A DNA stretch of 64,000 nt, taken from contig NZ_AP019841.1 of assembly GCF_007990445.1 (NCBI RefSeq), forward strand, positions 1 through 64,000, given 5' to 3'. Under the pieces are notes generated by a model. The model ran no database searches, had not been told where the DNA came from, and saw only the letters and a program-made list of their open reading frames with translations. This DNA comes from Leptotrichia wadei. GTDB lineage: Bacteria; Fusobacteriota; Fusobacteriia; Fusobacteriales; Leptotrichiaceae. This document shows positions 129-5,104 of this stretch, in pieces (the first letter of the stretch is position 1; each line of letters opens with the position of its first letter). Both the position numbers and the translations under genes were made by a program.

Positions 129-464
129 TTTTCCACATTCCTATAATAACTAATATAATATATATTAATATATATATTATTATTATGCACTGTGGAAATG
201 TGGGAATACCGATGAATAAAGGGATTGCCAGCGGATAACCTGTGGAAAACTTTTGCCGATTTTGTGGAAAACTTTTTTCCACAATGTTATCCACATAGTT
301 ATCAACATAGGATGTGGAAAACTAAATCAATTGTGGAAAACCTGTGGAAAGCGCTTAAAAATGGGGATATAAGATTTTGTGGAAAAGTATTTAAAAAAGT
401 GAAATTATTGTGATAAATAAAGGTTTTGTTAGTATTTTTCCTATGTGGAAAAGTATGTGGAAAA
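129..464. other. oriC: oriC, upstream DnaA-box cluster
   Basis: By eye this stretch holds nine exact copies of TTTTCCACA in either orientation (starting near 129, 241, 263, 275, 313, 332, 378, 444 and 456), one classical TTATCCACA box at 287-295, and near-matches such as 343-351. DnaA boxes of the TTATNCACA type packed upstream of dnaA mark bacterial origins. The preferred box here has T at the third position instead of A. Together with the cluster downstream of dnaA it forms a bipartite origin, as in Bacillus or Helicobacter. No protein gene is credible in bases 1-577. Confidence 0.85.
138..187. other. candidate DNA unwinding element
   Basis: Almost pure A/T stretch with alternating TATA runs, lying between an isolated DnaA box at 129-137 and the main box cluster from 241. 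Its position and composition fit a duplex-unwinding element. A second AT-rich candidate lies at about 2266-2334 in the downstream cluster, and sequence alone does not say which one melts. Confidence 0.45.
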
Positions 465-479
465 CTTTTTTTCAAAATC

Positions 480-508
480 TTGATTATTTATTTTATATAT
501 GTTATAGT
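480..508 (+). promoter_or_regulatory. dnaA promoter
   Basis: TTGATT (480-485), a 17-bp spacer and TATAGT (503-508) match a housekeeping sigma promoter about 70 bases before the dnaA start. DnaA boxes end just upstream at 464, so DnaA binding could autoregulate the gene. The autoregulation is inference. Confidence 0.6.
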
Positions 509-577
509 TAAATCAAATTAGAGGTTACACGATAGTAATTTTACTATAAATTAATAATAAAAGAAGGGAAATAGCAG

Positions 578-1927
578 ATGGATGTCGTGAAATTGTGGGA
601 AAAAGTGAAAAAAACTATGAAAAGGAAGATTAGTGAAGGAGAATTTGAGCTTTTTTTTGAGAATGTAAAGGCAGAAAAAATAGAAGATAACATATTTACG
701 CTTACCTGTAATTCTAAACTGATAAAGGAAAGTGTGGAAAAGTATAGAAGCCAGATGGAAGAAATTGTGGAAATTGTGACTGATGAGGAAATTACAATGA
801 AGTTTGAAGTAAAAAAACAGGACGTAATGCTGTATCAGAATGAAGTACATAGACTTCCAAAGGAAACAAGGGAAAAAGCTCCAATTCACACAGGATTAAA
901 TCCTAGACATCGGCTTGATAATTTTGTAGTTGGGGAAAACAGCAGGCTGGCATATAATGCATGTCTTGCAGTTGTGAAAAATCCGACTGTTTACAACCCG
1001 CTTTTCATCTTTGGAAGTTCAGGGCTCGGAAAAACCCATCTTATGCAGGCTGTGGGAAATGCAATCTTGGAAAAGGATCCGACAAAACGGGTTTATTATT
1101 CCACTTCAGAAGAATTTGCAAATGAGTTTTTCAAAGTTTTAAACAGTGGACGGATTCAGCATTTTCGGGACACCTTTCGTGCTTTAGATGTGCTTCTTCT
1201 GGATGACATACAGTTTTTTGAAAAGGTCTTTGGACGTGGAGAAGGAACTGTGGAAGAGGAGTTTTTCCACACTTTTAACAAGCTGCAGGAACTAGGAAAG
1301 CAGATAATAATGATAAGCGACAAGTCGCCAAAGGAGATAAAAAATCTGTCAAAACGTCTGGAATCAAGATTTTTGTCAGGCTTAACTGTGGAAATACAAA
1401 GCCCTGGCTATGAAACTCGCATGATGATTTTAAAAAATATGGCAGAAGCACAGGGAATTGAGATAGATGAGAGCATTTTAGAATATATTTCAGACTCCTT
1501 GAATACAAATGTAAGAGAACTGGAAGGAACACTTACAAACCTTAATGCAAGGGCAAAATTGCTAAATGAGCAGATAACATTGGAATTAGTGCAGGAAATG
1601 CTCATGCACAACGTAAAGCGGAAGCAATCTAAAATGACGGCCCAAAAAGTAATAGAAATGATTTCTGCACATTATAGCATCAGTGTAGCCGATATGAAAT
1701 CTAAAAAACGCCAGAAAAAAATAGTTGAAACAAGACAAATTGCAATGTATCTCTTAAAAAACAACGATGATCTTGATCTAAGCCTAACTGCAATTGGCGG
1801 GCTTTTTGGTGGAAAAGACCACAGCACGGTTATAAGCAGCATTAGAAAAATTGATAAGAAAATAAAAGAAGATATTGTATTTAAGAAGGAGATTGACACA
1901 TTAAACAAGAAAATATTCAAGGTATAA
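578..1927 (+). CDS. dnaA: Chromosomal replication initiator protein DnaA
   Basis: ATP-dependent initiator that binds DnaA boxes and opens the origin. The 449-residue length is typical. Order: N-terminal DnaB/regulator-interaction domain (about 1-80), short linker, AAA+ ATPase with Walker A GSSGLGKT at 146-153 and Walker B LLLDD at 206-210, then a C-terminal helix-turn-helix with the box-recognition signature DHSTV near 414-418. The ATG is preceded by a purine-rich AAGAAGGG site. It lies between two DnaA-box clusters and is probably transcribed from the promoter at 480-508. Recognition is secure. Confidence 0.98.
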   Translation: MDVVKLWEKVKKTMKRKISEGEFELFFENVKAEKIEDNIFTLTCNSKLIKESVEKYRSQMEEIVEIVTDEEITMKFEVKKQDVMLYQNEVHRLPKETREKAPIHTGLNPRHRLDNFVVGENSRLAYNACLAVVKNPTVYNPLFIFGSSGLGKTHLMQAVGNAILEKDPTKRVYYSTSEEFANEFFKVLNSGRIQHFRDTFRALDVLLLDDIQFFEKVFGRGEGTVEEEFFHTFNKLQELGKQIIMISDKSPKEIKNLSKRLESRFLSGLTVEIQSPGYETRMMILKNMAEAQGIEIDESILEYISDSLNTNVRELEGTLTNLNARAKLLNEQITLELVQEMLMHNVKRKQSKMTAQKVIEMISAHYSISVADMKSKKRQKKIVETRQIAMYLLKNNDDLDLSLTAIGGLFGGKDHSTVISSIRKIDKKIKEDIVFKKEIDTLNKKIFKV

Positions 1928-1932
1928 AAGAT

Positions 1933-2486
1933 TGTGGAAAGAATGTGGAAAACTTTGTGGAAAACTCGTATTAAAAAATCTGGAGTTTTCCACTGTGGAA
2001 AAAGTTTTCAACAATCTAAATTTTTATAAATATTTATTATCAATATAATTATATTCTGATTAATTAAAAAAATAAATTTTACCATTGTGGAAAAGTAAAA
2101 ATTAGTTATCCACAGTATGTTGAAAAGTTTTCCACAATTTTTGTGGAAAAAGATTGTTAAAATTTACGATTAATATTGTGATTGTGGAAAAGTAAAATAT
2201 AATTGTGTAAAACTGAAATTTAGTTATCCACATTGTTAAAAAAAGTTTTCCACATTTGTGGATAAATCAGTTTTAGTTAATATTAAATTAAATATAAATT
2301 GATAAAAAATTATATAAATAAAAAATGTAAAAAGTTTTCCACATATATAAAATTTATATCCACAATGCAATGTGGAAAAGTAAATAGTTAGAAAAGTTAG
2401 TAAAAATGGAGATAAACTGTAATTGTGGAAAAGATGTGGAAAAAATTGTGGAAAAAGTTTTCCACAAAAAAAATGAGTTTTCCACA
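1933..2486. other. oriC: oriC, downstream DnaA-box cluster
   Basis: The 626-bp gap after dnaA has no convincing gene. By eye it holds fifteen exact TTTTCCACA copies on both strands (for example 1944, 1956, 1994, 2086, 2128, 2142, 2183, 2246, 2335, 2371, 2424, 2435, 2447, 2458, 2478) and three TTATCCACA boxes (2106, 2224, 2257 on the opposite strand), plus variants. An AT-rich block at 2266-2334 separates two subclusters and is a second unwinding-element candidate. The gap occupies the place where dnaN usually follows dnaA. Confidence 0.85.
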
Positions 2487-2553: not shown

Positions 2554-2787
2554 ATGAGAAAAATAGATAATGAAATTGAAGAAATTGCGATAAATACTGA
2601 GTTTATAAAATTAGATCAGCTGTTAAAGTGGGCAAATCTTACAGGTTCTGGAGTGGAAGCGAAAATATTTATTCAAAATGGTGAAGTGAAAGTAAATGGT
2701 GTTGTGGAAACAAGACGTGGAAAAAAAATTTATGATGGGGATATTGTGGAATTTGCTGGGGAAAAGATAGCAGTGAGAAAAAAATAG
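2554..2787 (+). CDS. S4-domain RNA-binding protein (YaaA/RlbA type)
   Basis: Small 77-residue protein that is essentially one S4 RNA-binding fold: the segment from about 18 to 70 has the S4 pattern with a basic, glycine-containing turn (VNGVVETRRGKKIYDGD). In many Firmicutes an S4 gene sits between dnaN and recF, and here it sits directly before recF, which supports the assignment. The start has a good AAGGAGAAG site at about 2540. The likely role is binding structured RNA or the ribosome. The molecular target in this group is not known to me. Confidence 0.85.
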   Translation: MRKIDNEIEEIAINTEFIKLDQLLKWANLTGSGVEAKIFIQNGEVKVNGVVETRRGKKIYDGDIVEFAGEKIAVRKK

Positions 2788-2834: not shown

Positions 2835-3923
2835 ATGTATTTGGATCAGATTAGTTTTAATAACTTTCGTTGCCTTGTGGATGGAAAGTTGAAGTTTGAC
2901 AGGTATTTTAATTTAATATATGGGAGAAATGGACAGGGAAAGACATCACTTATTGAGGCTGTCTATTTTTTGGCTACGGGGAAAAGTTTTAGGACTAAGA
3001 AGGTAAAGGAGGTTCGCAAGTATAATTTGAACAGGTTAATTGTATTTGGGAAATATCAGCATAAGGATTTCTCGGAAAATGTTATTGCTATTGATGTGAA
3101 TGAGGATAGAAGGGATTTTTATATTGACAGGGAAAAAAATAAATATATAAATTATGTGGGACTTTTGAATATTATCTCATTTATTCCTGAAGATATTGAG
3201 CTAATTGTGGGAAATCCTGGGGTTAGGAGAAGTTTTTTTAACTATGAAATTTCGCAGGCAAAAAGGGAATATCTGCAGTCGATTGTAAATTTTGAGAAAA
3301 TATTGAAGGTGCGAAATAAACTTATAAAGGAAAAAAAGACTGGAGAGGAAATTTATAAAATTTATAATGAAAAATTTATTGAGGAAGGGCTGAATATTGT
3401 TTTAAATCGGCGGGAATTTATAAAAAAATTATCAATTTTGCTAAATCTAAATTATAGAAAGTTATTTGATGAAAATTCGGAACTTAAATTAAAATACGAC
3501 TGTTTTCTTGGAGATGTGGAAAAGAAAACCAGGGAAGAGTTGAAGGGGAATTTTGAGTTAATGTGCAAAAGAAAAAGTGAAAGGGAAAAATTTTTAGGGT
3601 ATAGTTTGCTTGGACCGCAAAAGGATGATTTTATTTTTGAATTAAATGGGAAAAATGCAAAGGCATATTCTTCTCAGGGAGAAAAAAAATCTATAATTTT
3701 TTCGCTGAAAATATCAGAAATTGATATTTTAATAAAAGAAAAAAATGAGTATCCGATCTTTATTATGGATGACATTGCTTCGTATTTTGATGAAGTGAGA
3801 AAAAAGAGCATTTTAAATTATTTTTTGAATAAAAAAATTCAATGTTTTATAACTTCAACAGAGGATTTGGGGATAGAAGGGAAAAAATTCATTGTGGAAA
3901 GGGGAAAAGTTACAGCAGAATAA
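2835..3923 (+). CDS. recF: DNA replication and repair protein RecF
   Basis: SMC-like ATPase that helps load RecA at gaps and acts in replication restart. The 362-residue length is normal. Walker A GRNGQGKTS is at about 30-38. A signature-like SSQGEKKS motif near residue 280 and a Walker B region IFIMDDIASYFDE near 310 complete the ABC-type ATPase. It follows the S4 gene by 47 bp, an order conserved near many origins. The start is preceded by GAAGGGGAAG. A stem-loop overlaps the stop codon. Confidence 0.96.
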   Translation: MYLDQISFNNFRCLVDGKLKFDRYFNLIYGRNGQGKTSLIEAVYFLATGKSFRTKKVKEVRKYNLNRLIVFGKYQHKDFSENVIAIDVNEDRRDFYIDREKNKYINYVGLLNIISFIPEDIELIVGNPGVRRSFFNYEISQAKREYLQSIVNFEKILKVRNKLIKEKKTGEEIYKIYNEKFIEEGLNIVLNRREFIKKLSILLNLNYRKLFDENSELKLKYDCFLGDVEKKTREELKGNFELMCKRKSEREKFLGYSLLGPQKDDFIFELNGKNAKAYSSQGEKKSIIFSLKISEIDILIKEKNEYPIFIMDDIASYFDEVRKKSILNYFLNKKIQCFITSTEDLGIEGKKFIVERGKVTAE

Positions 3924-4060: not shown

Positions 4061-5104
4061 ATGGAAGGAATTAGAGAATTAAAAAGTTTGGCATTAGAGG
4101 CGATTGAGAAAAAAAGTTCACTTTTGAAAAATGAGAAATATATTTTTTTGAAAATTAAAAGAAACTGGAAGCAGATCGTGAATGGTCCGATTGGTGAAAA
4201 AACTAATCCAAAGGGGCTGTTTAATAAAAATTTAGTTGTAGTTATTAATGATAATGTTATTTATCATACGACAATAATGTGTGCAGAAGTCATAAGGGAA
4301 AAAATAAATACTTTCCTGAATGGAGAATTTGTGGAAAGCATAGAGTTTATGAAAGTAAATTATAAGGTAAAACGTGATTTGCTGGATGAACTTATTGAAA
4401 ATGAGGAAAATAGAGGGACAATTCGAGTTGGAGAAATTCCGAGGGGAAATATTGGAAAAAAGAAAATAAATGTTGAATCAGAAAATAAAATTACTGAAAA
4501 AATAAAGGATATTGTACTTTCTCCAGAGGAAATTAAGGAAATTCATAGAAATATTGATAAAATTGATAAAAAGTATGAAGATATTGCTAGAAGTTTGGAA
4601 AAAGTTGCAATAAAATTGAAAAAGAGAGAAAAATATTTGAAAAGTATTGGGTATGTTGAATGCGAGAAATGTAAAATTCTGTTTTTGCAGGAAAGCAATG
4701 AAAAATTGTGTTTTGAGTGCAGAATGAATGAGAAAAATTGGAAATTTCAGAAAATATCAAATTTAATAAAAGATAATCCGTATATATCTGAAAAACAGGC
4801 AGTTAGAATAGCAAATACAGATAAATCCACATACTATAAGGCACGGGATATTTTGGCACAGCAGACTTATAACGATATGCTTTATTATTGTGTGGAAAAA
4901 AATAAGGAAATTTCTGTAAATGGAGATTATGAGTTTGAAATTCGGAGCGAATCACGGGAAGATGTGGAAAAATTTATAAAAAATTATGTGGATTATAAAA
5001 TTGGAAGTGATAATGAGGAGGTCTTTAAAATTGAAAGGAAGGCGGTTTTGAGAAGGTTGAAAAGGGATGTCAGGTTTAGGCTTGAAAATAGCAGGAGGTA
5101 TTGA
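4061..5104 (+). CDS. DUF721/DciA-like protein with C-terminal zinc ribbon
   Basis: 347 residues. The first ~105 resemble the DUF721/DciA family (a W-x-x-I-V-x-x-P-I-x-x-x-T-x-P segment near 36-50 followed by beta-rich sequence), which supplies the DnaB helicase loader in bacteria lacking DnaC/DnaI. A charged linker follows, with a predicted coiled helix at about 155-195. Next comes a four-cysteine ribbon (CEKC at 201-204, CFEC at 217-220) and a segment near 235-265 that looks like a helix-turn-helix (SEKQAVRIANTDKSTYYKA). Ordinary DciA is far shorter, so the C-terminal half is the unusual part. Its place beside recF and oriC suits a replication role. The DciA call is by motif and context only. 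Confidence 0.65.
   Translation: MEGIRELKSLALEAIEKKSSLLKNEKYIFLKIKRNWKQIVNGPIGEKTNPKGLFNKNLVVVINDNVIYHTTIMCAEVIREKINTFLNGEFVESIEFMKVNYKVKRDLLDELIENEENRGTIRVGEIPRGNIGKKKINVESENKITEKIKDIVLSPEEIKEIHRNIDKIDKKYEDIARSLEKVAIKLKKREKYLKSIGYVECEKCKILFLQESNEKLCFECRMNEKNWKFQKISNLIKDNPYISEKQAVRIANTDKSTYYKARDILAQQTYNDMLYYCVEKNKEISVNGDYEFEIRSESREDVEKFIKNYVDYKIGSDNEEVFKIERKAVLRRLKRDVRFRLENSRRY

Follow-up and report, generated by a model that had tools for sequence, protein, structure and literature searches.

Dense DnaA boxes on both sides of dnaA in the predicted chromosomal origin of Leptotrichia, with a downstream array restricted to one lineage

What might an origin of replication do with an array of nearly uniform DnaA boxes behind dnaA, and when was such an array gained? 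The question is raised by Leptotrichia wadei, in which the window analysed here is the whole 64,000-nt stretch from base 1 onward of the main contig (2,335,974 bp; genome of 2.40 Mb in 4 contigs). Genes at the locus were ordered rpmH (divergent)-dnaA-rlbA-recF, with dnaN not adjoining dnaA:

578 to 1927, plus strand: dnaA, 449 aa (PF00308, PF08299), with two in-gene copies of TTTTCCACA at 733 and 1263
2554 to 2787, plus strand: S4-domain gene (rlbA/yaaA-like), the first gene after dnaA and 626 nt from it
2835 to 3923: recF
4061 to 5104: dciA

Among the matches listed, DnaA of Leptotrichia hongkongensis was 88% identical to that of the window. rpmH lay across the contig end from the origin, in the opposite direction, and a TnpB-like gene sat between them. 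This IS200/IS605-type TnpB gene (L038:18627-19724) ended ~250 bp before window base 1; of the genomes examined, no other had it between rpmH and oriC. An earlier note on this DNA had read the region as a bipartite origin, and GC skew, sampled in 20-kb stretches of the genome, agreed: the contig's final 20 kb gave -0.32 and the window's opening 16 kb gave +0.39, so the sign flips at the dnaA region and the origin is not placed elsewhere. The other inversion lay at ~1.14-1.26 Mb. Marks of a bacterial oriC found here were the position at the skew inversion and a cluster of TTWTNCACA-type DnaA boxes adjoining dnaA, and we predict that region 129-2486 is the chromosomal origin oriC of Leptotrichia. 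We found no report on a Leptotrichia origin in the open-access literature.

An exact search of 129-2486 returned 26 copies of TTTTCCACA, 24 outside the dnaA coding sequence and two inside it, together with four copies of TTATCCACA at 287, 2106, 2224 and 2257. The 24 plus four boxes counted by eye in the earlier note were right for the non-coding part, as were the coordinates (first box at 129, last box ending at 2486) and the placing of boxes on both sides of dnaA, with 10 upstream and 18 downstream. Apart from a single box at 129, these formed two arrays:

241 to 464: upstream array of 8 TTTTCCACA and 1 TTATCCACA, starting at 241, 263, 275, 287, 313, 332, 378, 444 and 456
1944 to 2486: downstream array of 15 TTTTCCACA and 3 TTATCCACA, restricted to Leptotrichia plus a single sister genus

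The whole window held 42 copies of TTTTCCACA, whereas dinucleotide shuffling of the 64 kb predicted 2.4 +/- 1.7, with no more than 7 in any of 100 shuffles. Across the 2.4-Mb genome there were 267, at ~0.1 per kb outside the region versus 11 per kb in 129-2486, a density ~110 times that of the remaining genome; the box is thus not equally dense elsewhere. Copies of TTWTCCACA at 2.5-64 kb lay inside ORFs with one exception, most of them in the frame.T GTG GAA AA. (Val-Glu codons). Genome-wide enrichment of TTTTCCACA as a titration system was rejected, as copies reached only 1.2-1.8 times Markov expectation (4th- to 6th-order models, 461 kb outside the origin region) and those elsewhere in the window were nearly all genic. 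Counted as TTWTNCACA with at most one mismatch, the two intergenic parts held 43 boxes (18 upstream, 25 downstream). The same motif and threshold give 22 in the Clostridioides difficile origin (PMC7561715), and a review of studied origins lists 5-19 boxes each (PMC4285127), which bears out the claim that the number is high.

Across the phylum, 98 Fusobacteriota genomes were searched, the dnaA region was extracted from 35, and TTTTCCACA was counted within 700 bp of dnaA on each side. Dense two-sided boxes were confined to a clade of 14 genomes, comprising 13 Leptotrichia and the single genome of a sister genus (G066). All 14 carried 4-17 copies upstream and 4-19 downstream, with exact copy number varying between species from 10 to 38. 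The other 21 genomes had 0-5 upstream, and none of the 21 had any within 700 bp downstream. The main contig of G094 (C1:1-1400) starts only ~65 bp before dnaA, short of its upstream origin region. The gap between dnaA and rlbA was at least 600 nt in all 14 clade genomes, whereas in the other genera, where rlbA was found, its match started 3-119 nt after dnaA. The best reading of this distribution is that the downstream array was a lineage-specific gain that predates the split between Leptotrichia and one sister genus.

Box positions were conserved beyond the surrounding DNA. In MAFFT alignments of the 14 genomes, with circular shifts of the box mask as control, downstream box columns were 0.85 conserved versus 0.70 for the rest (0 of 639 shifts as high) and upstream box columns 0.90 versus 0.69 (0 of 599). 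In the L. hongkongensis group many boxes carried one change yet were in place, mostly with at most one mismatch. Three genomes had genes inserted between the array and rlbA, all falling outside the box block: a 317-aa lipoprotein-like gene in the two species G071 and G072, and a TnpB-like ORF in G078. As to how the block arose, a plasmid source was rejected, with no DNA match in PLSDB, and so was a simple copy of the upstream region, for which the only match was inverted, 57 bp long, 82% identical and box-rich (240-296 vs 2434-2487); this match is suggestive of copying from upstream but no proof of it. Terminator-like matches in the array were paired boxes and were not counted as terminators.

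The earlier note had proposed two AT-rich unwinding candidates, one on each side of dnaA. Both low-stability stretches are real, yet the downstream one made a poor second unwinding site, with no conserved DnaA-trio run downstream of dnaA in the 14 clade genomes scanned. Features bearing on opening and on dnaA expression were:

129 to 137, plus strand: DnaA box, exact match to TTTTCCACA, beyond the candidate unwinding element; of 14 clade genomes, 11 have it with at most one mismatch and 3 are unaligned there
137 to 186: candidate DNA unwinding element, lowest in stability of all 50-mers in the 64 kb (nearest-neighbour stability, 99.998 percentile)
175 to 186, plus strand: DnaA-trio run TAT TAT TAT TAT, present in 14 of 14 clade genomes and always 4 nt before TGTGGAAAT
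191 to 208, minus strand: pair of imperfect DnaA boxes, TGTGGAAAT and GTGGGAATA, of the basal unwinding system (BUS) type, adjoining the trios
480 to 508, plus strand: TTGATT-17-TATAGT, its -10 preceded by TG, a probable dnaA promoter by consensus match only
2277 to 2326: second low-stability stretch, inside the downstream array (99.99 percentile), without a DnaA-trio run

Within the first 2.6 kb, 2277-2326 was the next least stable stretch after 137-186, so that low-stability stretches number two while the trio module occurs upstream only. Positions 175-208 read TATTATTATTAT-gcac-TGTGGAAAT-gtgggaata, at the right edge of the least stable 50-mer; trios, spacer and first box together occupy 175-199. 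A basal unwinding system comprises a DnaA box, a spacer of 0-16 nt and at least three NAN trios (PMC8287927); here we found a box with one mismatch, a 4-nt spacer and four trios, in a layout kept in 14 of 14 genomes. Shared with the described system are the box pair, the 4-nt spacer and the run of NAN trios adjoining an AT-rich element (PMC8287927), whereas the trios are TAT in Leptotrichia and TAG in relatives of families f3, f4 and f6. TAG trios at the same spacing, and at about the same distance from dnaA, were seen in outgroups from three other families (G063, G064, G097); the scan did not cleanly pick out the module in certain further genera from the same family as Leptotrichia. Strand opening is predicted upstream of dnaA, at 137-186.

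In the bipartite oriC of Bacillus subtilis, Helicobacter pylori and C. difficile, DnaA boxes likewise occupy both dnaA-flanking intergenic regions (PMC4285127, PMC7561715), and there is one AT-rich opening element; the Leptotrichia region resembles them in having two box clusters split by dnaA. C. difficile and H. pylori carry the opening element downstream of dnaA (PMC7561715, PMC4285127). The trio module and predicted opening element of Leptotrichia instead lie upstream (oriC1) and not downstream (oriC2), so its layout would be the reverse; its boxes are also more numerous and more uniform, and dnaN is not next to dnaA. Cyanobacterial origins share the preferred 9-mer, TTTTCCACA being the usual cyanobacterial DnaA box, but 1-12 boxes are listed for them and the lineage is unrelated (PMC4674748). 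In Escherichia coli, the extra boxes of datA can bind surplus DnaA in initiator titration, as the array could (PMC5835720). However, datA lies apart from the origin and has about five boxes (PMC5835720), whereas the Leptotrichia array has 18 boxes beside the origin, no farther than ~2.3 kb from the opening element, a position in which it could nonetheless serve as a sink. The bipartite box layout is already known, and what Leptotrichia appears to add is a conserved block of ~18 boxes behind dnaA, an unusual variant.

We consider it fairly probable that this is an upstream-unwinding origin with a derived downstream DnaA-binding array, acting in the orisome and/or as a DnaA sink. DnaA would bind the imperfect box pair at 191-208, form a filament on the TAT trios at 175-186 and melt the AT-rich element at 137-186, steps that we infer because the DnaA-box/spacer/trio layout of the basal unwinding system is conserved. 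This opening module would precede dnaA, an arrangement shared with the other DnaA-retaining Fusobacteriota. In the common ancestor of Leptotrichia and its sister genus, the dnaA-rlbA gap would have grown to at least 600 bp and been filled with near-uniform, high-affinity boxes, giving a second subregion without an unwinding module that binds many DnaA molecules beside the origin. The array could join the orisome by looping over dnaA and/or act as an origin-linked DnaA sink, and the sink and the boxes adjoining the dnaA promoter could together set initiation timing. DnaA binding, looping and the sink role of the array are all inferred from sequence. Against this model, TAT trios are weaker than the common TAG and are set in AT-rich DNA. 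Helical phasing of the boxes was weak downstream (p about 0.02, uncorrected) and none was seen upstream, so an ordered loop complex is not demonstrated. A more far-reaching version, which we hold only tentatively and consider doubtful, is that oriC became bipartite secondarily with a reversed layout, that an insertion in DnaA domain IV tunes the protein to arrays of one box type, and that normal timing of initiation depends on the array.

Other explanations would give the boxes a narrower role. A purely origin-linked sink without any orisome part, like the titrating role of datA, is possible yet rather unlikely. The near-uniformity of the boxes, nearly all of one strong sequence and not graded (few variants other than TTTTCCACA and TTATCCACA), would suit it, as would the missing unwinding module downstream and the differing box number between species, whereas the conservation of box positions and orientations across species goes beyond what a pure sink needs, and the array remains beside dnaA even where genes have been inserted after it. 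Boxes serving chiefly in transcription, the upstream ones to repress dnaA and the downstream ones rlbA-recF-dciA, would account for boxes 444-464 ending 15 nt before the promoter-like sequence, at which an alike sequence is visible in relatives, and dnaA autorepression through these boxes is plausible. As the main role of the boxes this is improbable: 18 boxes over 540 bp far exceed the needs of repression, and the DNA from the array to rlbA yielded no conserved promoter. We regard it as very unlikely that the true opening site is the AT-rich stretch behind dnaA (2266-2334), matching the arrangement in B. subtilis, H. pylori and C. difficile. Among separated stretches in the origin region this one ranks second in instability, and it has boxes on both flanks, yet no more than 1-3 trios stood beside a box in 13 of 14 genomes, at differing places, whereas the four-trio module occurs upstream in all 14; the downstream region is, moreover, absent from other genera.

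A change in the DnaA recognition helix, which the earlier note had raised as a possible cause of the box preference, could in principle have produced the preference for TTTTCCACA and hence the array. This was not borne out and seems highly improbable: the recognition helix KDHSTVISSIRKI was identical in genomes with 1-5 boxes (G081, G084, G085), and such few-box genera favour T at position 3 to the same degree. T exceeded A at that position by ~4:1 in array genomes, matching the few-box relatives (80% of TTNTCCACA). As the few-box genera share it, the T preference is older than the array, and it is neither new nor tied to it. In favour of a changed protein are an extended flank, AG-TTTTCCACA (among upstream boxes from four divergent clade genomes, 72% have A at -2 and 67% have G at -1; background copies, 30% and 9%), and two extra residues in DnaA domain IV (window 1640-1860), found among the 35 genomes only in Leptotrichia and G066. 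The alignment reads KNND.LDLSL in array genomes versus K--.LDLNL elsewhere. In an AlphaFold model, whose closest solved structures were the DnaA DNA-binding domains 1j1v, 8btg and 3pvp, the insertion falls in the loop between helices 3 and 4, just before helix 4, which carries one box-contacting residue (position 423 of E. coli; PMC5043019). The insertion may alter DNA binding. It coincides with the array in the same 14 genomes, a correlation of what appears to be one event, both having arisen once.

The Leptotrichia locus would thus represent a whole second origin subregion gained in one lineage, with close relatives lacking the array. Array-bearing and array-free relatives make the questions of why origins split and what extra boxes do testable by comparison and deletion. 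Within the phylum the origin appears labile: Leptotrichiaceae multiplied DnaA boxes, and Fusobacteriaceae appear to have lost DnaA.

The latter observation came from the same genome set. DnaA domain IV (PF08299) was detected in 0 of 61 genomes of family f2, which we take to be Fusobacteriaceae from the Fusobacterium vincentii SB055 record and the general taxonomy, versus 36 of 37 others; as a control, the model picked up DnaA in E. coli, in B. subtilis and in 8 other genomes. PF00308 gave weak matches only in f2. A relative of the G016 'Replication initiator protein A' (RPA; PF10134, E = 1e-7 for G016) was present in 59 of the 61, as fragments only in several genomes and with further copies in many. 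Where flanks were read, it was divergent to rpmH and/or adjoined the S4 gene and recF, the place of dnaA:

L109:7057-8934 (G016): RPA-type initiator, from PF10134 and a locus between rpmH and rlbA-recF
L141:5001-6779 (F. vincentii NZ_CP084075.1): RPA-type initiator, from the same gene order

GC skew inverted at the RPA locus of G016, and F. vincentii SB055 NZ_CP084075.1 (2.1 Mb, filed as a plasmid) matched G016 in gene order and skew change; the 11.8 kb read from it lacked TTWTCCACA. Fusobacteriaceae therefore probably lost DnaA, the chromosomal initiator having been replaced at the same locus by a plasmid-type RPA. A 2020 paper names some cyanobacteria as the first free-living bacteria known to lack dnaA (PMC7198777), and we found no report of dnaA absence in Fusobacteriaceae in the open-access literature. 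Haliovirga abyssi and Ilyobacter polytropus also have RPA relatives, located on large additional replicons. The G016 RPA-rpmH intergenic region (L109:8935-10310) is a probable DnaA-free origin: it is without DnaA boxes, is extremely AT-rich (the kilobase at 611 kb has ~10% GC) and consists of a direct duplication of roughly 680 bp.
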